Of a stretch of DNA of 64,000 nt, positions 15,642-63,064 are shown one piece after another. The notes under the pieces were generated by a model. That model was given only the letters and a program-made list of their open reading frames with translations. It was not told the DNA's origin and searched no databases. Each line of letters starts with the position of its first letter. Within the stretch, counting starts at the first letter, position 1. Source of the DNA: a virus; IMG/VR virus record IMGVR_UViG_3300030102_008089, positions 63,434-127,433 of that record; one strand, written 5' to 3'. A program made the position numbers and the translations under genes.

Positions 15642-16496
15642 ATGAGTAAAATAGGAATAATTGGTTGCGGTTTTGTTGGTTCATCTATAAAATCTGGACT
15701 GTGTGAAAAGAACAATGTCAATTCATATGACAAATACAACACTGACTTATCCACGGTTGATAATCTTCAAGCACTTGTGGAAAAATCTGATATACTTTTT
15801 GTATGTGTGCCAACACCTATGAACAAGGATGGTTCCTGTGATACAAGAATAGTGGAATCTACTGTTCTTGAAGTGGATAAAATCACAAATCCTTTAAGTA
15901 AAAAAATAGTAGTAATAAAATCAACAGTTCCGCCAGGAACAACCAGTAAGCTACAGAGCGAAACTGCTAATGTAGATGTGGTTTTTAATCCTGAGTTTTT
16001 AACGGAGGCAAATCACATTGAAGATTTTAAAAACCAAAAAAGAATTGTATTAGGAGGAGACGGGTGTACTCCCGCTCTGGAAAAGCTCAAAGCAATGTAT
16101 ATGAAACAGTTCCCAGAGGTTCCGTATGTTTTGTGTGGCTCTTTAGAGGCGGAAATTACGAAATATTTTTGCAACTGCTACTTGGCTACTAAAGTTTCAT
16201 TTGCTAATGAAATGAGACAACTATGTGACTCTCTAAATGCAGATTACAACAGAGTGGTTGAGGCTTCCGTGTACGATACGAGAATTGGAAAAAGCCACCT
16301 TGCAGTCCCAGGACCTGATGGTAAAAAAGGCTTTGGTGGATCTTGTTTTCCAAAAGACATTAATGCTATTATGGACGTAATGAAAAAAAACAACATAGAG
16401 TCAAAAGTTCTTAGGGCTGTGTGGGACAAAAATCTAGAAGTTAGACCAGAAAAAGATTGGGAACAATTAAAAGGAAGGGCAGTAAGTTATGAATAA
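15642..16496 (+). CDS. UDP-glucose/GDP-mannose 6-dehydrogenase family, short form
   Basis: A 284-residue nucleotide-sugar 6-dehydrogenase. It shows the Rossmann motif IGIIGCGFVGSSI, FVCVPTPMNKDGSCD, the IKSTVPPGTT motif, FNPEFLTEANHIEDF, EITKYFCNCYLATKVSFANEM in the central dimerisation helix, and the active-site cysteine C235 in GFGGSCFPKD. Family members normally have 390-450 residues with a C-terminal nucleotide-binding domain; that domain is missing here, and the frame ends about 50 residues after the active-site cysteine. The intact motifs argue for a working enzyme making a uronic acid. It overlaps the fcl-like gene by eight bases. Confidence 0.8.
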   Translation: MSKIGIIGCGFVGSSIKSGLCEKNNVNSYDKYNTDLSTVDNLQALVEKSDILFVCVPTPMNKDGSCDTRIVESTVLEVDKITNPLSKKIVVIKSTVPPGTTSKLQSETANVDVVFNPEFLTEANHIEDFKNQKRIVLGGDGCTPALEKLKAMYMKQFPEVPYVLCGSLEAEITKYFCNCYLATKVSFANEMRQLCDSLNADYNRVVEASVYDTRIGKSHLAVPGPDGKKGFGGSCFPKDINAIMDVMKKNNIESKVLRAVWDKNLEVRPEKDWEQLKGRAVSYE

Positions 16497-41973: not shown

Positions 41974-42891
41974 ATGGTTAGTTTTTTTGACCAAAAAGAA
42001 GAAGTACTAACTGTAGAGTTGACACCCTACGGGAAGCAGCAGTTTGCCGAGGGGCTTTTTGCCCCAGCGTATTATGCTTTTTATGATAGTTCTATCATTT
42101 ATGATTCTGACTATATTAAATTAACAGAGACTCAAAACAGAACTACAACTAGAATAACCACTGAGACACCAAAACTAAAACCAAATGTGAGATTTAACTC
42201 GACACCTGGTTCTGTTTATTCACTGTTGACATCAAATGACTCCAGTGGGTTTGCTCAAGATAAGCCCTACAATGCTAACTACGCACGCACTTTAGGTAGT
42301 AGTGATCCTAATTCATCAAATCTTCCATCGTGGAAAATTCAAACTTTAAACCTTAGTGATGTTGGTTTTAATGAAGGCGTTCGTTATAATTTAGATAATA
42401 CTATTCCACAGATGTCAGCAACGTTGTTTATAGATTATGAAACTCTTGAAGGTACTGGAGTCGAAGGAGAGCCAGCGATTTATACACTTTTGGGGTCAGA
42501 TAGCCTTTTTCTAAATGTAGAAGAGCTTAATACTTTGTTTAAAAATAACGGAAATTTTGATATAGAGGTTTATAAATCTGGCTCGGAAGGAACGATGACA
42601 CCCTTGGGGTTTATAAACAGAGAAGCATCTCAGGGGCAATCTTTACAGTCTCAGACTGACCCATTTGTTCTAGCAAATAATATTAGAGGAAATAACAACA
42701 ATATTGTGAGAGGGTTTCCAATTTTAGATGACAAGTATGTTGAGTTTTATTTAAACTTGTCGGTTGACACAGAAATTTCCTTTATAACAAGTCCAACAAA
42801 CTCGACGCTATATAAGAGAAGTATTGATAGAACACCCGAAGATCCTTGTGATGTTTTAGATACTCTACCAGAAGGATATGATTTAGGGTAA
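41974..42891 (+). CDS. Tail protein with shared 'LTxxGxxxxAxG' N-terminal domain
   Basis: A 305-residue protein. Its N-terminus, VLTVELTPYGKQQFAEGLF followed by YYAFYDSSIIYDSDY, matches the pattern of the protein encoded at 49529 (AVLTDEGRRRLALGDGSF then KFALGDDEIDYSLY), so the two share an N-terminal domain, probably a docking module. The rest is beta-rich with no recognised motif. Likely a minor tail or fibre-adaptor protein. Confidence 0.6.
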   Translation: MVSFFDQKEEVLTVELTPYGKQQFAEGLFAPAYYAFYDSSIIYDSDYIKLTETQNRTTTRITTETPKLKPNVRFNSTPGSVYSLLTSNDSSGFAQDKPYNANYARTLGSSDPNSSNLPSWKIQTLNLSDVGFNEGVRYNLDNTIPQMSATLFIDYETLEGTGVEGEPAIYTLLGSDSLFLNVEELNTLFKNNGNFDIEVYKSGSEGTMTPLGFINREASQGQSLQSQTDPFVLANNIRGNNNNIVRGFPILDDKYVEFYLNLSVDTEISFITSPTNSTLYKRSIDRTPEDPCDVLDTLPEGYDLG

Positions 42892-42904
42892 AGGTATGTT
42901 TTAA

Positions 42905-45900
42905 ATGGCTAATGTAATATCTTTAAATATAGATTCAATTCTATTAACAACAGATTTAGAAAGAAACACTAGCACAGCTAATATCTCTTTGTCGCACGAC
43001 ACAGGGGACTCTTTTGATGATTTATCTGCTTACCATATTAGGGTTGCTGTAAGTACAACACAAGAGTCTTCTAGGGCTTTGGACTACATTAGTCAAAGAT
43101 ATAATGAATTCCTAATGAACCATGCAGGCAACAAAACAAGCTTTGATTATAATAAATACTTACAATATGCATTAGGGGACCACAGCAGTTACTTGAGTGT
43201 TTCATCTCCTTTTTCTCCGTTTTCTACTAACAACGAAGCAAGAAACTTACTTATAAAAAACAACGTTTCAAAATATGGCACAGGAAAAATTATTCCAGAT
43301 GGTGTTATAATTTATGATGTTGACTTAGTGTCAATTTTGAGCAAAAATTTGGCAGACAAATTACTACAGACCATAAAGATAGAGTTGCCGTTAAGTATTG
43401 AAGAGATGGAGCATTTTTCTTGTTACGCTTATGTGTATAATGATAGAATTTTGTCTTCTTTCCAATATGATTCATCTCTTAATTTTTCTCTAACAACAGG
43501 GATGTTTCCCGTTGAGTACAAAACTTTTTTAGGAAAATACACAGAATATCAAAAAATAAATCCCAATAAACCATTCATTGGTATGCATAGTGTAGACGAG
43601 ATTACAAGCCCAGACAACAGTCTGTTGAGAGTTATAAATATTAACCCCTCAGAGGAGATCGAAGGGAAGTATAAATCATTTATTAAAACGATCAATCAGG
43701 CTTTTAAAACTAACGAAACCAACAAAAATTACCAACTTCAAAAGTCTTTAAATACAAGAAATTACTTTACTGATTTTTGGATTACAAAAGACAATGAAGA
43801 AAATGCTAGGTTTATATTTTCTTTTGACGTTAGGTCGTACCTGCAAGACAATGCTTTATTTCCAATTGTTTACTCAAGCGGGCTTTTTCAAGATAAAAAC
43901 ATTTTAGATATCGATACGCTGCTTCAATATCGTCTAGATGATAGTGTCTCATCTGTAAACATTTTCCGATCGTCCTTGTTAGAAACAGGATTCCAACCTA
44001 AGAACAAACTGGGAACAATAGAAAAAGGTAGCCAAAACAATAGATTAAATGTGAATATAGACACCAGTAAAAAACCCGTTCAAGATGTTAAAGAGGTGAG
44101 CCTGAAACTTTTAAACGGATCCTTTGTCGATGCGGGACAGTCTGTTTCTTTTTTTGAGGGATGCGATAAATTTTCCTCCGAAGATATAAAAGATACACAA
44201 CATAGTGCGTTGTACAAATATTCCGCTGAGCTTGATGTTCTGGATAGTTCTTCTGAAATTATGAGAGTAGTGGCTCATAAGCTTTTAGATTTAAAAAGAA
44301 GAACAGGAGAACTTCATAGTTATATCGCTTCGGATTCAAGTCGTTTATTTGGTAATATACCAGCATATAATTTACAGACAGGAAGACTTAACAAACCAAT
44401 CGGTGGTTTGACCACTTTGGACGGAAAAAACGCAGAACAAGAAATAGTAAATATTTTAAGATCTTATCAGGGAATATTAAATAAGTTGTCTGGTTCAACG
44501 ATTGATTTAGTCAGTTACTATCAGAATAAAATTATGAGTGTAATGGGACTAATTGAAATAAGTTTGCTGAAAGAAATAGAAAGAAGCATAGATTTTGGTA
44601 TAAAATTTGTTTATGATAGGTTGTTAAAAGTATACCCATCAGACCCTTTTGGTAGGAAAATGGATTCAAGTAAAAACCGTTTTGCTCAAAACACCAGCCG
44701 ATCAAGTCAAAATAACATTAACAAGGTCCAACACACATTTTCGGAAGTGTTTGAAAGAGGCAAGTCCAACGGCTTGGGAGTTGATTATATATTTGACGAT
44801 TCAAAGATGGGCAGTTTTAAAAACATATCAAGCTCTGAGTATGATGCAAGGCGGGCTGAAGAATTTGGAAAGTACTTTTTTTCTCTGGGGGGCGAGTCGT
44901 CTTTAGAACCGCCCCCAAGTTACGAAGATTCTTCCTATGCTTATATGACGCCTAAGATAATTAAGACCCCCTCTAGGGATACAATAAATCAAGTTTCCTA
45001 CACTTCCAGAGGGGGAACTTCTATAGATTATGATTTTGATAGGTATGGGCAACTTTACTCTGATTTGGTTACTCTTTACGAAATGACTGAAAAAATGGGA
45101 ATGTCATACCCAAGTTTGCAAGCTGCTGCTTCGGAACAAGGAGTTAACAATAAGATATATTCAACAATCAAGAGGACTCTCCACGAAAGATTTGGGGTAG
45201 CGATAAATGAAGATGTTGTGCCACAATTTAGTTCCCCTAGAATTATGCAGGGTGATTCAAAGCAGTCAATTTACACTTTGAGAGAAAAAGAGAATTGCGG
45301 ACCAAACGGCGGACTTTTGTTAATACAGTCTATAACAGGCGGCGAAAATTCCCAGGATCAGACATTTGATAACTATTTTTCTTCTATTTCATCCAAAATA
45401 AAAAATGAAGACACTGAAACTTTAAAGGGAGAGATTACTAGGAGAGCAACTGAAAATGATCGCAAAGATCGATCTATAAAGCTTCCTTTTGTTTTGTTGG
45501 GCGAATTAACTCTTAATACAAAAATATCTCAAACTGAAAGATCGAATAAAAGCACCTTTAACTCTTTGAGTCAATTAAGAAAAATTTTGTCAATCTCGGA
45601 ACAAAACATACAAGATATGATTGATAGTGACGTTGTGTCTGAATTACCAAATCAACTAAAAAACATGCTTATTGTTAGCTCTACAAGACTTTCTCTGACA
45701 CTTGGTGAGGCTGATGGCAGCTATACTTTTGATGCACGAAGGTTTTCGCTAAACGAGTCAGATGTACAAGATGGCGACGATTTGGTTAGTTTTTATAGCC
45801 CTCAGTCAAAAGATACCACATATTTTCAAACACCAGATCCAATGAAATCATACGCTAAATTTATGGCTTTGTGGATGAACTACAGGCAAATTGCAGTTGT

Positions 45901-56318: not shown

Positions 56319-57185
56319 ATGAAAATAACAATTTCTCAACTTCGGGGTATGGTAGAAGAAGCCTTACTTGATGAGAAGAAAAAAAAGCGAAAGAAAAAAA
56401 AGAAGAAGAAAGGCGGCAAAAAAGACGCCTGCTATCATAAGGTAAAAGCTCGTTATGATGTTTGGCCTTCTGCTTACGCTTCTGGTGCCCTCGTAAAATG
56501 CCGAAAGGTCGGCGCTGCCAATTGGGGCAACAAAAGTAAAAAAGAAGGAATCGAGCAAGATCCTCTTCGTGATATGATTCGTGAGACCATATCAGAATTG
56601 ACTGAAAAAAAAAGTAATCCTCGCATCCCAAGAAAAAAGGGACAAAAGAAAAAGTCAAAAAAGCACAGCGACCTCTACACCGATGAGGATCCAAAAGGCA
56701 CAATCCACGGACTGAAGTTTGCCACCGAAGCAGACGCAAAGAAAAGTGTGTCCAAAATCCGCAACTCCAGCCGCTCGCACGCTCATAAGGTTCAAGCCGC
56801 TGTTGCCATGGAGCAACGAGCAAAAGCAGCGGGTAAAGCCTCCGCTGCCGCAGTTTACAGAAAATATATTAACTCCGTAAAAAAAGATGAGAACCTTGAA
56901 GAAGAACCTATTGAGGAAAAGAAAAGAAAACTGACCAAGAAGCCCTCGTCAGAAACGAGCTTACGAGACTGGTTCAAACGCAAAGGAGCTAAAGGTAGCA
57001 AGAGTGGTTGGGTAGATTGTAATACCTGTCGCAAAGATAAAAAGACAGGCAGAAAAAAATGCAGTGCTTGTGGTCGCTCTAGCGGCGAAAAACGAGCAAA
57101 GTATCCGAAGTGCCGACCCACACCAGCGGCGTGTAGTAAGCGAGGCAACTATGGCAAAAAATCAAAGGCAGGTAAAAAAGGATGA
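56319..57185 (+). CDS. Leader-tagged protein 3, lysine-rich, multidomain
   Basis: A 288-residue, very basic protein with leader MKITISQLRGMVEEALLDE (V12-E13-E14), then a long lysine run (about residues 22-36). Three short modules follow: CYHKVKARYDVWPSAYASGALVKCRKV; a helical TEADAKKSVSKIRNSSRSHAHK region with AAGKASAAAVYRKYINSVKK; and a C-terminal Cys-rich region with DWFKRKGAKGSKSGWVDC and CRPTPAACSKRGNYGKKSKAG. The first and last modules look like conserved small domains of large DNA viruses (DUF5872-like for the last, from memory). It could bind DNA or be packaged with it. Confidence 0.6.
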   Translation: MKITISQLRGMVEEALLDEKKKKRKKKKKKKGGKKDACYHKVKARYDVWPSAYASGALVKCRKVGAANWGNKSKKEGIEQDPLRDMIRETISELTEKKSNPRIPRKKGQKKKSKKHSDLYTDEDPKGTIHGLKFATEADAKKSVSKIRNSSRSHAHKVQAAVAMEQRAKAAGKASAAAVYRKYINSVKKDENLEEEPIEEKKRKLTKKPSSETSLRDWFKRKGAKGSKSGWVDCNTCRKDKKTGRKKCSACGRSSGEKRAKYPKCRPTPAACSKRGNYGKKSKAGKKG

Positions 57186-57967
57186 AAAAATTACTAACAG
57201 AATGGCGAAAGTTTCTAAAGGAAGTTGATTATGAGGCAAGCGAACTCGCAATACAGATTCGACAAGAGAACCAAAAGTTGCGAGATAGAATTGAAGCCGC
57301 AATGAAAAGAGAAGGTGTTGACTGGATTTTAGAAGATATACCAGAGTGGTCTTTGATTGCTACCCCTACTTCAGAAGATGGGAGACAGCAGATGATTGAC
57401 GATATGGATGAAATTCTAGCAACCTACGGAAGTCCATCTGTCAAAGAACTTCTTATGACAAATGAGAGTGTAGAAAAAGAGATCTCAAAAACGCTGTCCG
57501 ACGAGGGCGGCGCTTCTGGCTTAGATCCATTACACAAGGCTGCTAAAAAGGTAGAAAAAAACATTTCCAAAAAAGAAGTAGAAGACATTATCAAGAAAAT
57601 GGATAATGTTACTAAACATCGTGATGGTGATTATATCAAAGAAGAGTATTACCACATCAGTGATGCTACCTATGATGATGGCACACTTGTTGAAGATGTA
57701 GAATTCTGGGACGACGTAGTTGTTGAAGCAGAATACCGTGGACGCAAAGTCAAGCTTAACAAGCCAACTCGTGGAGATGTAAAAAAATTTAAGGTCTATG
57801 TCAAAGACCCAAAAACTGGAAACGTCAAGAAGGTAAACTTTGGCGACAAGAATATGAGAATTAAAAAGTCCAACCCAAAGCGTCGCAAGTCTTTCAGGGC
57901 TCGACATAACTGTGATAACCCAGGACCAAAAACAAAGGCTCGCTATTGGTCTTGTAGGAAGTGGTAA
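57182..57967 (+). CDS. Leader-tagged protein 4 with C-terminal RHxC...YWSC domain
   Basis: A 261-residue protein with leader MKKLLTEWRKFLKEVDYEA (L12-K13-E14). Residues about 30-110 look helical (IQIRQENQKLRDRIEAAMKREGVDW). The C-terminal 60 residues are basic: GRKVKLNKPTRGDVKKFKVY, then KSNPKRRKSFRARHNCDNP ending in KARYWSCRKW, a Cys/His/Trp motif I recall as a recurrent C-terminal module in marine phage proteins. ATGA overlap with the preceding tagged gene and taATG overlap with the next. Function unknown. Confidence 0.6.
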   Translation: MKKLLTEWRKFLKEVDYEASELAIQIRQENQKLRDRIEAAMKREGVDWILEDIPEWSLIATPTSEDGRQQMIDDMDEILATYGSPSVKELLMTNESVEKEISKTLSDEGGASGLDPLHKAAKKVEKNISKKEVEDIIKKMDNVTKHRDGDYIKEEYYHISDATYDDGTLVEDVEFWDDVVVEAEYRGRKVKLNKPTRGDVKKFKVYVKDPKTGNVKKVNFGDKNMRIKKSNPKRRKSFRARHNCDNPGPKTKARYWSCRKW

Positions 57968-58431
57968 TGAAAAAGCTGATGACCGAATGGAGAAAATTTC
58001 TCCAAGAAGAGATGAAGGTTGTCATCAGTGCGGCAAAAGAATTTGTTTGCCCGCCAGCAACCCAAGACCTAAAACTCAACACAAAGAACCGTGATGCCTC
58101 CATCAAGGCAGAACACATTCAGTACGGACCTCTCAACGTTGACGAGCCAGGTGATTACTGGAAAGACATAGCCGAGTACTGGAACACGACCGAGGCAGCC
58201 GCCAAAAAGTCCAACTGCGGAAATTGTACTGCTTTTGATATTTCTCCACGAATGGACGCTTGTATGCCAGGCGTGACCTCTGATAACGATGGCAGACTTG
58301 GTTACTGCTGGATGCATCATTTCAAGTGTCACTCGGCTCGCTCTTGCCGCACTTGGGCAAAAGGCGGACCAATCAAAGAAGACAGCGTATCTTACGAGTG
58401 GCAGGAAAGAAACGACTTTGGGACAACCTAA
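57967..58431 (+). CDS. Leader-tagged protein 5, cysteine-rich (possible metal-binding)
   Basis: A 154-residue protein with leader MKKLMTEWRKFLQEEMKVV (L12-Q13-E14). The C-terminal half carries a cysteine pattern (KSNCGNCTAFD, MDACMPG, GYCWMHHFKCHSARSCRTW) resembling a small Fe-S or zinc domain such as the HiPIP-like proteins. The ATG at 57967 is chosen because it overlaps the previous stop and starts the leader; an in-frame GTG two codons earlier is also possible. No function known. Confidence 0.6.
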   Translation: MKKLMTEWRKFLQEEMKVVISAAKEFVCPPATQDLKLNTKNRDASIKAEHIQYGPLNVDEPGDYWKDIAEYWNTTEAAAKKSNCGNCTAFDISPRMDACMPGVTSDNDGRLGYCWMHHFKCHSARSCRTWAKGGPIKEDSVSYEWQERNDFGTT

Positions 58432-58880
58432 TGAAAAAGTTGATGACCGAGTGGCGGAAGTACATAAAAGAAGAGAAGATGGCAGACCTTGATGCCGAGC
58501 AAGCATATAGCACAAAAGTAAAAGGTGTCAACGTAATTATTAATCTAAAAGACACAGACCTTCAAGCAACCAAGCACAGCAAGGAACGACAGTTTCGCCA
58601 CGACGAAAAGATTTCCAACCGAGCAATCATCCAAGCGGTTGAGTTAGCCATCGGAAAAATCATTCAGGACTATGCCAACGGCGAACTTGGCAACGACGAG
58701 CCTTTCCATATTCGCATGGTCGGCAGAGGAAAGGTCCCAGCCCTCAACGTCATCGCAGTTTTAGATATGCGAAAAGGACCAGACACAATAAAAGTAATTA
58801 CAGTAATGCGTAAAGACGATTTTAAGACTGACAGTTTTGCTGGCGGACAACAAAAAACTTACACGGTACAATCACGATGA
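58431..58880 (+). CDS. Leader-tagged protein 6, possible RelE/PBECR-like nuclease
   Basis: A 149-residue protein with leader MKKLMTEWRKYIKEEKMAD (I12-K13-E14). The body resembles phage-associated RelE/barnase-like polymorphic-toxin domains in outline: TKHSKERQFRHDEKISN near the start, a central helix (AVELAIGKIIQDYANG), then two beta strands (ALNVIAVLDMRKGPDTIKVITVMRKDDF). This is a weak pattern match. The ATG at 58431 is chosen since it starts the leader and overlaps the previous stop; earlier in-frame codons lie inside the neighbour. Confidence 0.55.
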   Translation: MKKLMTEWRKYIKEEKMADLDAEQAYSTKVKGVNVIINLKDTDLQATKHSKERQFRHDEKISNRAIIQAVELAIGKIIQDYANGELGNDEPFHIRMVGRGKVPALNVIAVLDMRKGPDTIKVITVMRKDDFKTDSFAGGQQKTYTVQSR

Positions 58881-59701
58881 AGTTGATTATGGAAAACTGG
58901 CGAGGCTTTCTCCAAGAGGGAAGATACGAAGCGGCCACAACAGAACTGACCCGCAAGGTAATACCTTATGTCAAATATATTATTGACGAGATACTGCCTG
59001 GGCTCATTGAAAATCCGCCACGCAAGGACTTGACAGTCGTAACACCCAAAAGATATGAAAGGGGTAAAGGACTCCCAAAAGAACTTGAAGAAAAGATGTA
59101 TTCTGTTTCGTTCAAATTTTATATTGATAAAAAACTAGCAGAAGAAACAGGGGACAAATTCCAAATCGGCGGGGCTTTTATGGGAGACCCAGAAATCCCA
59201 AGCGATAGTTATATGGTAGTCAATAGTTATTTGGATACTGGCTTCAGCGAACAAGATCTTAACGCTTATCTTGGCGAACTCAAAGCAGTCACTATCCACG
59301 AGATTCAACACGGCGGCCAAACCGATGATGTGTTGAAAACCTCTGACCCCCGAACTTACAACCCTATGGGCGGAATCAACTGGAACTATAACAACCTTGA
59401 TGGTATTCGTGGATATTATGCTTCGGAATCTGAAACAGATTCTTACACCAAAGAAGTTTATAAAAGAGCAAAGTATTATAAAATACCTTACACAGAAGCG
59501 TTAGATATGCGTATCAAACAATTCTTTGATATGTTTAAGCGCCGCCGAGACAAGATGAACGCCGAAGACAAGAGGGAAACTCCTGGCGAGTTTAGGGTCC
59601 AGTACACAGAAGAAGAACTCAAAGACTTCTTTTACAACGAACTGCGTGATAAATATATTGCGTTTGCTAAAACAAAATATCCAGAGGCTGTGGGAATATA
59701 A
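58877..59701 (+). CDS. Leader-tagged protein 7, HExxH metalloprotease-like
   Basis: A 274-residue protein with leader MKLIMENWRGFLQEGRYEA (L12-Q13-E14). A zinc-protease motif HEIQH is at residues 141-145 in AVTIHEIQHGGQTDD. The flanking sequence NSYLDTGFSEQDLNAYLGEL precedes it, and Glu-rich GYYASESETDSYTKE follows at a distance fitting a third ligand. If the leader targets it to the capsid, it could be an internal virion protease delivered with DNA. The start overlaps the preceding stop (ATGA). No family name assigned. Confidence 0.65.
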   Translation: MKLIMENWRGFLQEGRYEAATTELTRKVIPYVKYIIDEILPGLIENPPRKDLTVVTPKRYERGKGLPKELEEKMYSVSFKFYIDKKLAEETGDKFQIGGAFMGDPEIPSDSYMVVNSYLDTGFSEQDLNAYLGELKAVTIHEIQHGGQTDDVLKTSDPRTYNPMGGINWNYNNLDGIRGYYASESETDSYTKEVYKRAKYYKIPYTEALDMRIKQFFDMFKRRRDKMNAEDKRETPGEFRVQYTEEELKDFFYNELRDKYIAFAKTKYPEAVGI

Positions 59702-59716
59702 CAAATACTCCTTTCG

Positions 59717-59734
59717 CAAACTATTTACTTTATG
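59717..59734 (+). repeat. 18-base exact repeat (copy 2) at a gene start, candidate promoter
   Basis: CAAACTATTTACTTTATG here is identical to 53440-53457, including position relative to the ATG (59732). The surrounding bases differ, so the identity is limited to the element itself. It separates the leader-tagged group from the following membrane-protein genes. Confidence 0.65.
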
Positions 59735-60202
59735 AGTAGGGAAAGGGATTTCTACAGAAAAATGCAAGAAGACGCTCGTAATTCTATGTACGAGCCAGAG
59801 ATTATTGATGTCTCCCCACCCGCCAAGAAAGTAAAAACCAACTACCTTTCAGCAGTCGTTTGGACTTCGGTTGTCGCAACTGTGGTCTGTACGATTTTTA
59901 TGGGTCTCCTTTTATATGTTGTGAATGAGAGCCAGATTGAAGAGCGACTTGAAACGGCTGCGAGCCACGCTCTTTACAATTTGGAAAGCGTCATCAAGCA
60001 GCAGAACATAGAGATACAGCAATTGAAGGCAGAAAATAAAAAGATATATAATCACATAAAGTTTTGGACTCCGATAGAACACAGGTTTCCACCAGGCGTA
60101 AAAGAAACCTGGGAGATACCGTTCTACGGAACACCAAAATATGAACGCCGCTCTTTCCAATTATCACAGGAACCAGAACTATGCTTACCTTTCTTGGAAT
60201 AA
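59732..60202 (+). CDS. Single-pass membrane protein with coiled-coil domain
   Basis: A 156-residue protein with an N-terminal charged tail, one transmembrane segment (about residues 38-63, VVWTSVVATVVCTIFMGLLLYVV), and a helical region (ERLETAASHALYNLESVIKQQNIEIQQLKAENKKIY) that looks like a coiled coil. The C-terminus is a short soluble part. It starts from the repeated CTATTTA element and overlaps the M50 protease gene by 22 bases, suggesting it works with or regulates that protease. Unknown family; a spanin-like role is possible but not shown. Confidence 0.65.
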   Translation: MSRERDFYRKMQEDARNSMYEPEIIDVSPPAKKVKTNYLSAVVWTSVVATVVCTIFMGLLLYVVNESQIEERLETAASHALYNLESVIKQQNIEIQQLKAENKKIYNHIKFWTPIEHRFPPGVKETWEIPFYGTPKYERRSFQLSQEPELCLPFLE

Positions 60203-60984
60203 TCGTTTTAGTAATCTTTATCCACGAACTGGGACATTATGTTGCAGCCCGTGCTATGGGTGTCGCTGTTGATAGTTTTTCAATAGGGTTCGGCAAAGTC
60301 CTTCTTAAAAAGAAGCTGTGGGGAACTGAATGGCGACTATCGCTTCTACCACTCGGGGGATATATCAAACCTCGGGGAGAAGACGATTATTATAATGTAA
60401 AACAAGATCCGCAATCGTTTTGGTCAGCAGGACCGTGGAAGCGTGCCTTTATTGCGGTAATGGGACCAGTATTTAATTTATTGTTACCCTGGCCATTATA
60501 TTTTTTACTCCTGGTAGGACAGCCGTACCCTGATGTTGTGGTTCCCGAAGGGGCACAGGCTCACCGTATTGGTGTAGTAGAGGCGGCAGGCTATGCTCAC
60601 AAGGTGTCGCTAAAAATGTATAGCAGTATTTGGGAAGCCGTGACAATGCCCCGCCAAGAGCCAATGAGTGTCAAAGAAATAGGAGGACCTGTCGCTGTTT
60701 ATGAGTTTACCGAGTCCGCAAGAAAGCGGAGCGTAGAAACAGGAGACTGGGGATTTCTCATCGACTGGATTGCCTTTTTCTCCATCAATCTCGGTGTAAT
60801 CAATCTATTGCCAATCCCAGTGCTTGATGGTGGGCATATTGTAATGTCTACGGTGGAGGGGGTAAGACGTAAAAATTTGGAAGCAAAGACAAGGAACGTA
60901 CTAAATATAGTTGGTGCGGTTCTAGTGCTTGGGCTGATGGTTGTTGCAATAACTTCTGACGTGCTACGCCTTACTGGCATCTAG
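60181..60984 (+). CDS. Site-2 (M50/RseP-like) intramembrane protease
   Basis: A 267-residue membrane protease. The zinc motif HELGH is at residues 15-19 in the first transmembrane helix (VIFIHELGHYVAARAMGV), followed by FSIGFGKVLLKKKLWGTEWRLSLLPLGGYI, the standard RseP/SpoIVFB start. The second active-site motif NLLPIPVLDGGH is at about 208-219 (D216). It is much shorter than bacterial RseP (about 450): the PDZ region is nearly absent. Site-2 proteases cut membrane-anchored regulators such as anti-sigma factors. Here a neighbouring membrane protein with a cytoplasmic part is a possible partner. Both metal-binding motifs are intact. Confidence 0.85.
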   Translation: MLTFLGIIVLVIFIHELGHYVAARAMGVAVDSFSIGFGKVLLKKKLWGTEWRLSLLPLGGYIKPRGEDDYYNVKQDPQSFWSAGPWKRAFIAVMGPVFNLLLPWPLYFLLLVGQPYPDVVVPEGAQAHRIGVVEAAGYAHKVSLKMYSSIWEAVTMPRQEPMSVKEIGGPVAVYEFTESARKRSVETGDWGFLIDWIAFFSINLGVINLLPIPVLDGGHIVMSTVEGVRRKNLEAKTRNVLNIVGAVLVLGLMVVAITSDVLRLTGI

Positions 60985-60987
60985 GAA

Positions 60988-60994
60988 CTATTTA
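60988..60994 (+). promoter_or_regulatory. CTATTTA candidate promoter before the Cys-rich mini-gene
   Basis: CTATTTA at 60988-60994 lies four bases after the protease stop in a short gap. A GTGGGGG ribosome-like site follows at 61003-61009 before the ATG at 61019. It matches the repeated element, here with a normal leader. Confidence 0.45.
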
Positions 60995-61018
60995 GATAAA
61001 CCCGTGGGGGAATAAATA

Positions 61019-61105
61019 ATGAAAAACGAAAATAAATGCGAGTGTTGTTGTTGCTGTTCTTGTTGTTGTAGTTGCGAGTGTGGTAAAGACGGCTGCTGCG
61101 GCTAA
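61019..61105 (+). CDS. 28-residue cysteine-rich mini-protein (13 Cys)
   Basis: The frame starts at ATG 61019 and stops at TAA 61103-61105. The peptide begins MKNENKCECCCCCSCCCSCE and ends GKDGCCG; 13 of 28 residues are cysteine, in runs of five, three and two. A GTGGGGG ribosome-like site and a CTATTTA element stand before it. It has metallothionein-like composition, and the cysteine codons mix TGT and TGC (not a simple trinucleotide repeat), which argues for selection. It might buffer metals or redox state, or be an artefact of low-complexity DNA; the promoter and ribosome site favour a real gene. Confidence 0.6.
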   Translation: MKNENKCECCCCCSCCCSCECGKDGCCG

Positions 61106-61117
61106 AAAGGAAACATT

Positions 61118-62035
61118 ATGAAAATTACTAAATCTGAACTTCAACAAATTATCAAAGAAGCCACCCAAGGTGAAGTGGAGTTTGCCAAGCTAGAAAAAGC
61201 CCGTGAAAACTTCGTGCAAAACCGAGGCGACGACCGAGCCATCGACGACCTTCTGGTAATGGTGGAGAAACTTGTAGAACCTCTTATGGCTGAGATGGGA
61301 CTTTACTTCGATGTCCAGCCGCTTATTATTAGTGGAGAAATTGTCTTCACCAACGACCACAATATGGAAGTCAGGATTGACCCCCGTGGAGCGATGGGAA
61401 AATATGACGTCAAGGTTAACCCGCTCCACGCCGCCCACGATAGTTTTGATCGAGTTGAAATAAGCCTTGACAGTATGAAAGGCGTAGTGCAATATATCAA
61501 GGATGAGTTCAGAGAAGAACTACAACGAGGCGGAACATATAAACAGCCACCAATGGGTATGGTCGGCGAACCAGAAGGTCAAATGGAATTGCCCTTACCC
61601 AGGGAGAATAAAATGAGAGTCACAAAATCAGAACTACAACAAATCATCAAAGAAGAGATGGAAGCAGAACTTAGCGAAGATAAGTATGCCACCGAAGACG
61701 ACCGCCCTTTGGGAACAGGTCGCTCCTTGATGAGTGCTGAAGACGCAAAAAAGGCGTCAAGAATGGCTGACACGCTATATAGGACGCTTGGACCAGACAG
61801 TAGCGTTGACTCAATGGTCAGAATTTTGGTTCGGCAACTCTCTGACCTTTTGAAAAAGGGTGTGACTGGTGGTCGTTCCGACGGACCCGTCGGCAAAGGT
61901 CCTGCTTCTGCGGCAGATATGGAAAGATACGAAAGTGATTACCGTGACCCACCCAGAGAGCCACTCAAAATGGGTACTGGTCGCCGAGGACCAACCAAGG
62001 CAGAACTTGATATGATGAAGGACTATGACATCTAA
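61118..62035 (+). CDS. Leader-tagged protein 8, in-frame fusion with a second tagged protein
   Basis: A 305-residue frame with leader MKITKSELQQIIKEATQGE (I12-K13-E14). Residues about 20-160 form one mixed alpha/beta domain (FAKLEKARENFVQNRGDDRAIDD...KYDVKVNPLHAAHDSFDR). At residue 166 a second full leader (MRVTKSELQQIIKEE) appears without any intervening stop, followed by another 125 residues. No family recognised for either half. It lies 12 bases after the Cys-rich mini-gene; an AAGGAAA site precedes the ATG. Confidence 0.6.
   Translation: MKITKSELQQIIKEATQGEVEFAKLEKARENFVQNRGDDRAIDDLLVMVEKLVEPLMAEMGLYFDVQPLIISGEIVFTNDHNMEVRIDPRGAMGKYDVKVNPLHAAHDSFDRVEISLDSMKGVVQYIKDEFREELQRGGTYKQPPMGMVGEPEGQMELPLPRENKMRVTKSELQQIIKEEMEAELSEDKYATEDDRPLGTGRSLMSAEDAKKASRMADTLYRTLGPDSSVDSMVRILVRQLSDLLKKGVTGGRSDGPVGKGPASAADMERYESDYRDPPREPLKMGTGRRGPTKAELDMMKDYDI
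61613..62035 (+). CDS. Leader-tagged protein 9, internal in-frame start (140 residues)
   Basis: ATG 61613 is in frame within the larger 61118-62035 frame and is preceded by its own AGGGAG site (61601-61606), six bases upstream. It starts a second leader MRVTKSELQQIIKEEMEAE (I12-K13-E14). The body (SLMSAEDAKKASRMADTLYRTL...MVRILVRQLSDLLKKG) is helical and charged. The sequence supports either a separate nested product or a fusion caused by loss of a stop codon. Confidence 0.5.
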   Translation: MRVTKSELQQIIKEEMEAELSEDKYATEDDRPLGTGRSLMSAEDAKKASRMADTLYRTLGPDSSVDSMVRILVRQLSDLLKKGVTGGRSDGPVGKGPASAADMERYESDYRDPPREPLKMGTGRRGPTKAELDMMKDYDI

Positions 62036-62036
62036 A

Positions 62037-62291
62037 ATGAAAATCACCAAGTCTGAACTACAAAAGATAATCAAGGAAGAGATGGAAGAGGTGGCGGAAG
62101 GTCTATTGACCGAAACATCTGTTTCTCGGCTACAAACTATGCTTTATAGAATTGAAGATGATTTCGTGCCCTACCTTCAAAATACTCGGAGCGGAAAAGA
62201 ATTTGAGATAGCCAGAGCCACTATGCAGCTTCGCAAACTCTTAAAAGAAGGAATACAAGAACTTTCCGGAGACAATTATGAAGATTACTAA
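62037..62291 (+). CDS. Leader-tagged protein 10
   Basis: An 84-residue protein with leader MKITKSELQKIIKEEMEEV (I12-K13-E14) followed by a short, helical, charged body (SRLQTMLYRIEDDFVPYLQN). The ATG at 62037 starts the leader one base after the previous stop; an earlier in-frame ATG at 62025 is inside the neighbour. It overlaps the next tagged gene by 14 bases. Function unknown. Confidence 0.6.
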   Translation: MKITKSELQKIIKEEMEEVAEGLLTETSVSRLQTMLYRIEDDFVPYLQNTRSGKEFEIARATMQLRKLLKEGIQELSGDNYEDY

Positions 62292-62667
62292 AACGGAACT
62301 AAAAAAAATAATCAAAGAAGAACTCCTCAAAGAGTTTGGCTCGGAAGAGTACGGACTTCAAACCAAAGAGTTTGAACCTATCCCAGAATTAGAATTTGAA
62401 ATTGGCGATGAGGTTGATGTGCTTGGGGGTGTGTTAGCTGGTGCCGTTGGTGAAATAGAGGGAATGGGTAAAGTAGATGGTCGCCCCACTGTTGTTTTAC
62501 GCTTGTTGTCTGACGCTGGTGATACAGACTATAAGAGCGGCGCTCAAGTTCTTGTACGTCCTGACTTCCTTGAAAAGCGAACTGACCTTTTTGCCCAGCG
62601 TATGGGACGCAAAGCAGAAAACCCACGCCGAGGACCAATGAAGTACTATGGAGTCAAAGACGTATGA
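62278..62667 (+). CDS. Leader-tagged protein 11, small beta-barrel-like body
   Basis: A 129-residue protein with leader MKITKTELKKIIKEELLKE (I12-K13-E14). Residues about 40-95 look like a small SH3/KOW-type barrel (FEIGDEVDVLGGVLAGAVGE, VVLRLLSDAG, AQVLVRPDFLEKR), a fold that often binds nucleic acid or protein tails. It ends with a basic stretch (AQRMGRKAENPRRGP). ATGA overlap with the next tagged gene. No family assigned. Confidence 0.6.
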   Translation: MKITKTELKKIIKEELLKEFGSEEYGLQTKEFEPIPELEFEIGDEVDVLGGVLAGAVGEIEGMGKVDGRPTVVLRLLSDAGDTDYKSGAQVLVRPDFLEKRTDLFAQRMGRKAENPRRGPMKYYGVKDV

Positions 62668-62921
62668 AAATCACCAAATCACAATTGATAGAAATTATCA
62701 AAGAAGAAATAAATGAGTTAGAAGATCCTCGCAGCCCAAACAAACCGTCATACGAGTACGAAGGGCACGCTGATGATTTCAGAAGACAAGTTATGAACTT
62801 GGTTCTTCGACTTGGACCTCTTACATTAGAACCAACACTGGCCGCCGCCGTAGAAGTAGAGATTAGAGACGTTCTCAATACTCTCGGCATTGGCACTGAC
62901 CCACGGTCAAAGTACGAATAA
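62664..62921 (+). CDS. Leader-tagged protein 12
   Basis: An 85-residue protein with leader MKITKSQLIEIIKEEINEL (I12-K13-E14). The body is a short charged stretch followed by a helical segment (DDFRRQVMNLVLRLGPLTLEPTLAAAVEVEIRDVLNTLG). No family recognised. It is coupled by ATGA to the previous and by taATG to the next gene, like other members of the series. Confidence 0.6.
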   Translation: MKITKSQLIEIIKEEINELEDPRSPNKPSYEYEGHADDFRRQVMNLVLRLGPLTLEPTLAAAVEVEIRDVLNTLGIGTDPRSKYE

Positions 62922-63064
62922 TGAAAATCACCATGAATCAACTTCGTGAAATGATACGGCAACAACTTGAAGAGCGTTGCCAAAAGGGCTATAAAACCCA
63001 CGAAACTCGCAAAACAAAAAAAATGTTTGGTAGAACATACAGAAACTGCGTCAAGGCAGACTAA
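62921..63064 (+). CDS. Leader-tagged mini-protein 13 (47 residues)
   Basis: A 47-residue frame from ATG 62921 to TAA 63062-63064. It has leader MKITMNQLREMIRQQLEER, in which residues 12-14 read I-R-Q rather than I-x-E; a later L-E-E at 16-18 could substitute. The rest, CQKGYKTHETRKTKKMFGRTYRNCV, is a compact Cys-framed basic tail that I recall seeing at the C-termini of small marine phage proteins. Its start overlaps the preceding stop. It ends the leader-tagged series. Confidence 0.6.
   Translation: MKITMNQLREMIRQQLEERCQKGYKTHETRKTKKMFGRTYRNCVKAD

Follow-up and report, generated by a model that had tools for sequence, protein, structure and literature searches.

The DNA analysed here (the window, 64,000 nucleotides) carries at 61019–61105 on the + strand a gene for a microprotein of 28 residues, 13 of them Cys (MKNENKCECCCCCSCCCSCECGKDGCCG), which we place in a helix-less branch of a family of Cys-rich phage proteins. 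The frame is coding and conserved, orthologues occupy the same position in other phages, and the Cys cluster is invariant across the family. We take the ORF to be a selected phage gene, and our leading reading, held on sequence grounds with about even confidence, is that its thiol-rich product coordinates soft metals or buffers thiols.

Reading frame and upstream signals

A mini-gene had been proposed here by a sequence-only reading, and its frame, length and amino-acid sequence were all reproduced. The Cys codons are a mix of eight TGT and five TGC, and the runs of five, three and two Cys that it described are present in the peptide. When the window was resampled 15 times with a first-order Markov model, the maximum number of Cys per 28 stop-free codons was 5–6, against 13 observed, which excludes a chance origin of the ORF.

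A CTATTTA element claimed for the mini-gene was located as ACTATTTA at 60987–60994 (+), 24 nt 5′ of the ATG. It is probably promoter-like: a like element precedes the Cys gene of close relatives, and the window has 10 copies where 4.7 are expected, several of those on the + strand falling between genes of the late region. The claimed GTGGGGG site, GTGGGGGA at 61004–61011 (+), is the presumed ribosome-binding site. It is poor as a Shine-Dalgarno sequence, but is plausible because G-rich sites of relatives occupy the same place (CTCGGGGGGAA in L006, L007 and L008, CTGGAGGGA in L003); the relatives have either GGGGGGAA or GGAGGGA there.

Relatives at the same genomic position

The window peptide being 28 residues long, relatives were sought through neighbour genes and DNA patterns. 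As the sequence-only reading had it, the mini-gene lies between a site-2 protease and a leader-tagged cassette. The M50 protease upstream (60181–60984, +; 267 aa) matches Pfam Peptidase_M50 PF02163 at 2.6e-59, and the cassette with MKITK leaders begins downstream with the gene at 61118–62035 (+; leader MKITKSELQQIIKEA). The window protease is smaller than PDZ-bearing proteins of the RseP type, and used as a query it found relatives in 23 phage loci. Six of the contigs (L003, L005, L006, L007, L008 and L009) have a Cys-rich mini-gene about 33 nt past the M50 stop, with a product such as MKLVLHKLVNLFNDKHCCCCCGCCSCSGCKGECK and a preceding CTATTTAT-like element (CTACTTAA in L003). The gene that follows in L003 is an orthologue of the window gene at 61118–62035 (TQGE...EFAKLE), so that the gene order is identical in L003 and the window, and the window gene shares with a canonical family member its place between M50 protease and orthologous tagged gene. 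Two of these positional relatives, L003 and L006, differ by 10.5 synonymous and 4.5 nonsynonymous changes.

The fate of the frame in close relatives had been named as the point on which the claim should stand or fall. The six contigs keep a Cys-rich mini-gene, with no broken frame among them, but in five others (L004, L010, L011, L012 and L015) a leader-tagged gene replaces the Cys gene at this position; L013 and L014 have one tagged gene ahead of the Cys gene. The window's downstream gene, used as a query, gave one relative, which has no Cys gene next to it.

An importance of the protease as a neighbour was not borne out. Eight other member loci were examined and no M50 gene was found in them, and we therefore rejected the idea that the site-2 protease processes family members in general. 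It is conserved upstream in the window's sub-lineage only, that is, a lineage-specific neighbour.

The canonical family

Scans with the helix HKLVNLFN and with the pattern N-x-F-N-x2-H-C5-x-C2 (64 stretches) yielded 57 distinct proteins, all in phage or phage-like contigs, from collections composed of contigs of uncultured origin, whose scans may miss records close to the window. The contig of one member, binned as Halobacteriovorax, looks like phage from its abundance of tagged genes. The family consensus reads MKxxLH[K/R]LxNLFNxxHCCCCCGCCxCxxCxGxC, and in a second type the C-terminus ends ...CxxGCC; the common form has 9–10 Cys in about 33 residues, and most canonical members have two conserved His. 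Conservation of residues in the pattern is partly by construction of the scan, while outside it L5, H6, L8, L11 and G22 are nearly fixed and use many synonymous codons; pN/pS at the codons L5, H6, K/R7, L8, L11 and G22 is 0.21. AlphaFold2 predicts a short N-terminal helix and no confident fold (pLDDT 62.5). Members in five loci (L260, L273, L275, L278 and L286) have tails such as RRRGRPRKKK, for example NTLKVVRRRGRPRKKK, which we call AT-hook-like as a resemblance only, because Pfam AT_hook matches a single member, at E 0.18.

Pfam, NCBIfam and PHROGs gave no family match and the PDB no sequence at E ≤ 10. Phage and plasmid collections searched by tblastn with canonical peptides gave no match, though low-complexity filtering may hide some. 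Among other searches, blastn of a canonical gene gave short or weak matches only, taken as chance, Rfam gave nothing relevant, and generic poly-Cys patterns found mostly simple TGY repeats; weak matches in G008 and G010 proved, on reading the contigs, not to be Cys-rich ORFs. An open-access literature search on phage metallothioneins and Cys-rich phage microproteins returned nothing relevant, weak evidence on which the family is apparently undescribed so far.

The helix-less branch

The window peptide has the core of the family, C5-x-CC with further Cys (CCCCC-S-CC-CSCEC...GCC, compared with CCCCC-G-CC-xC...), and begins with MKNENKCE in place of the N-terminal LH[K/R]LxNLFN helix and the His before the Cys run. 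No canonical copy was found in the window's record. We treat the window form as a separate helix-less branch because its start is paralleled by MKNQKKCE in L401, whose member MKNQKKCECCCCCACCCNCACHKE was found in a scan for CECCCCCxCC; the branch is rarer than the helix-bearing form. The L401 gene is preceded by a CTATTTATTATA element and followed by a tagged gene. Over 20 codons the window and L401 have 12 synonymous and five nonsynonymous differences (pS 1.26, saturated; pN 0.10), part of the sequence being fixed by the search, and the synonymous excess proposed as a check on the gene is thus present. Cys 17, 19 and 21, which lie outside the search pattern, are kept in both. A related phage region, L358, has at 16115–16183 a third Cys-rich peptide of different arrangement, MCGCENCKCEKLCGCSCCCGDK.

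Source phage and gene neighbourhoods

The window forms the right half of an IMG/VR record of 127,433 bases from a phage with a contractile tail; among the genes of the record are those for a primase, a RuvC-like resolvase and baseplate wedge proteins. Of 12 phage records sampled, eleven carrying the family plus that of the window, 10 have T4-type gp23 and a gp21-type protease, the window's record, probably incomplete, being among the two without them. The mini-gene sits in the structural (late) region, and its expression would presumably be timed with that region. Many unrelated genes sharing the leaders MKITKxxLxxIIKEE or MKLLxxWRKxLKEE are found at 56319–63064 of the window and in most member loci. 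In T4-like phages that have a gp21-type protease, these leaders could direct proteins to the capsid and be cut at an I/L-x-E site.

Family members are flanked by leader-tagged, primase, resolvase, Mre11/Rad50-like, terminase-like and other structural genes (names given partly by eye), and no gene for metal transport, metal sensing or iron-sulphur proteins was seen to recur around the family. A phage tmRNA gene lies immediately 3′ of the Cys-rich gene in four phages (L047 302–611, L264 242–593, L268 5885–6194 and L279 1178–1489).

Cysteine synthase is a direct neighbour in two loci only and is absent from most member contigs. Its gene in L401 (311–1174) ends 29 nt before the mini-gene, and that in L281 (539–1183) starts 6 nt after the mini-gene, which is preceded there by a thioredoxin-like gene (Pfam Thioredoxin, 1.2e-5). 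In the part compared, the L401 and L281 enzymes share 73% identity. A further cysteine synthase lies at 42737–43585 of the window's record (G000), with cysKM as its best NCBIfam model (6.5e-77, below the curated cut-off), and all five cysteine synthases tested score best with cysKM, below that cut-off. The enzyme is encoded in 8 of 23 member contigs and, among 25 related contigs in which no member was detected, in 2 (Fisher one-sided p 0.03, uncorrected for phylogeny); the co-occurrence is suggestive only, because the contigs differ in completeness and relatedness.

Proposed function and alternatives

An invariant cluster of Cys and His is kept across contexts while the tether-like ends vary, and for this reason we favour a metal-thiolate or thiol-buffer role. 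The cluster would bind Zn, Cu(I), Fe or Cd as a metal-thiolate cluster, or might instead act as a thiol buffer of high capacity; its place of action would be the infected cell or the virion. The amphipathic N-terminal helix of the common form may tether the cluster to a partner protein or a membrane, and the AT-hook-like tail of a few members may tether it to DNA; the window form, which has neither, would be free. Where a phage carries cysteine synthase, the enzyme could supply the cysteine. Against this reading we count the lack of a recurrent metal gene nearby, the sparse adjacency of cysteine synthase and the low confidence of the predicted fold; five adjacent Cys are also, to our knowledge, unusual among known metallothioneins. 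It nevertheless has a higher probability than either of the two readings weighed next.

The family might encode an internal or structural protein targeted to the capsid, its helix a version of the neighbours' MKITK or MKLLxxW leaders and its Cys cluster, with or without metal, packed in the virion with the DNA. The frequency of T4-type gp23 and gp21-type protease among the phages sampled favours this, as do the amphipathic spacing of the helix, which resembles the tags, the AT-hook-like tails of some members, and the copies that lie among tagged genes or adjoin tail or other structural genes; T4 internal proteins are targeted by short N-terminal sequences (PMC9026906). However, the likeness to the tags is a generic amphipathic pattern, the I/L-x-E cleavage site is absent, the window form has no helix, and the role of the MKITK tags is itself conjectural, so that we judge capsid targeting unlikely. 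We hold it improbable that the peptide is a RiPP precursor, in which the helix would be a leader, the Cys part a cross-linked core, and the adjacent site-2 protease the enzyme that cuts or exports it. The common form does look like leader plus core, and in the window's sub-lineage the protease is directly 5′, but it was not found in the eight other loci examined, neighbourhood clusters showed no recurrent maturation enzyme (names judged from sequence and only partly by search), the Cys core is conserved at least as much as the leader, and the window and L401 forms have no leader. Nor does the window peptide look like a site-2 protease substrate, for it has no hydrophobic, membrane-spanning segment and the protease is not a constant companion.

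Slightly less probable again is a poly-cysteine attenuator, whose translation would sense the supply of Cys-tRNA and control the downstream tagged gene, the peptide itself being inert. Canestrari et al. (cited in PMC7790235) are said to have reported in 2020 that polycysteine leaderless ORFs in mycobacteria act as cysteine-responsive attenuators, and the phage gene has both a poly-Cys tract and, in many copies, a 4-nt overlap with the next start codon (AAGTGA/GTGAAA, ..ATGA). The phage members, however, have their own Shine-Dalgarno sequence and are not leaderless, and some have AT-hook-like C-terminal extensions. No terminator-like hairpin follows the window ORF on the + strand, and folding is unremarkable (z −0.76). 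Conservation of helix, His and Gly at the amino-acid level with synonymous change, the variety of downstream genes between phages (tmRNA genes among them) and the missing hairpin lead us to disfavour attenuation. That the frame is a functionless product of chance or decay we find barely credible: it is a single short ORF, missing at the same position in five relatives, but its Cys content is far beyond that of shuffled sequence, its L401 homologue has a synonymous excess, and the family is large. The positional orthologues, the synonymous excess and the family size uphold the original claim of a real coding mini-gene.

Returning to the metal-thiolate or thiol-buffer role, the best explanation that we can draw from sequence is a protein metallothionein-like in function and outside every metallothionein family tested. 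A wider picture is possible, although we hold it tentatively and well below even confidence: a widespread group of uncultured T4-like marine phages would make a dedicated thiolate-cluster microprotein, free or else with a helix or AT-hook as tether, and some would carry a cysteine synthase for its production, one of them with a thioredoxin-like protein as well, the whole forming a viral module for metal or thiol capture, possibly in the virion. Gene callers easily overlook proteins of such length; this one is conserved across dozens of large marine phages and appears to be unnamed because it is very short and matches no curated model searched. Its invariant HCCCCCGCC core is an arrangement of Cys without match among sequences of solved structure at the limit searched (E ≤ 10). 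Should it bind metal, phages would have a counterpart of metallothionein and a possible link from viral sulphur metabolism, through cysteine synthase, to a viral product. The family bears on the ways in which marine phages cope with zinc, copper, iron or oxidative stress.

Comparison with known systems

Like the polycysteine leaderless ORFs of mycobacteria, the phage ORF is short, has consecutive Cys codons and lies upstream of other genes; unlike them it has a conserved protein sequence, a Shine-Dalgarno sequence and varying downstream genes.

Metallothionein-like composition, in an arrangement unlike known metallothioneins, had been claimed for the window peptide, and this holds as a description. 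The proportion of Cys in a short protein is high, in the window form as in the common form, yet the Metallothio_Pro profile is not matched: 38 members, the window's included, have no Pfam metallothionein at E ≤ 1, and NCBIfam has none. Small size and richness in Cys are shared with the bacterial metallothioneins SmtA, BmtA and PmtA, and most canonical members, with 9–10 Cys and two conserved His, resemble them also in having His; the differences are about half the length, runs of five Cys and, in most members, the amphipathic N-terminal helix. Bacterial metallothioneins bind 3–4 Zn and have Zn-capable His besides Cys (PMC10612145), and the composition of the phage peptide could therefore suffice in principle.

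With T4 internal proteins that have a capsid-targeting sequence, the family has in common small size, T4-like phages as hosts of the gene, a place beside tagged genes and, in the common form, a short amphipathic N-terminus. It differs in having a Cys cluster and no cleavage motif, and in the window form no N-terminal helix.

An earlier report describes cysK as an auxiliary gene of viruses (PMC8725595), and the window's phage and several member phages likewise encode a cysKM-like enzyme. In the passages of that report consulted no Cys-rich peptide is linked to the enzyme, whereas here two of the peptide genes adjoin it.
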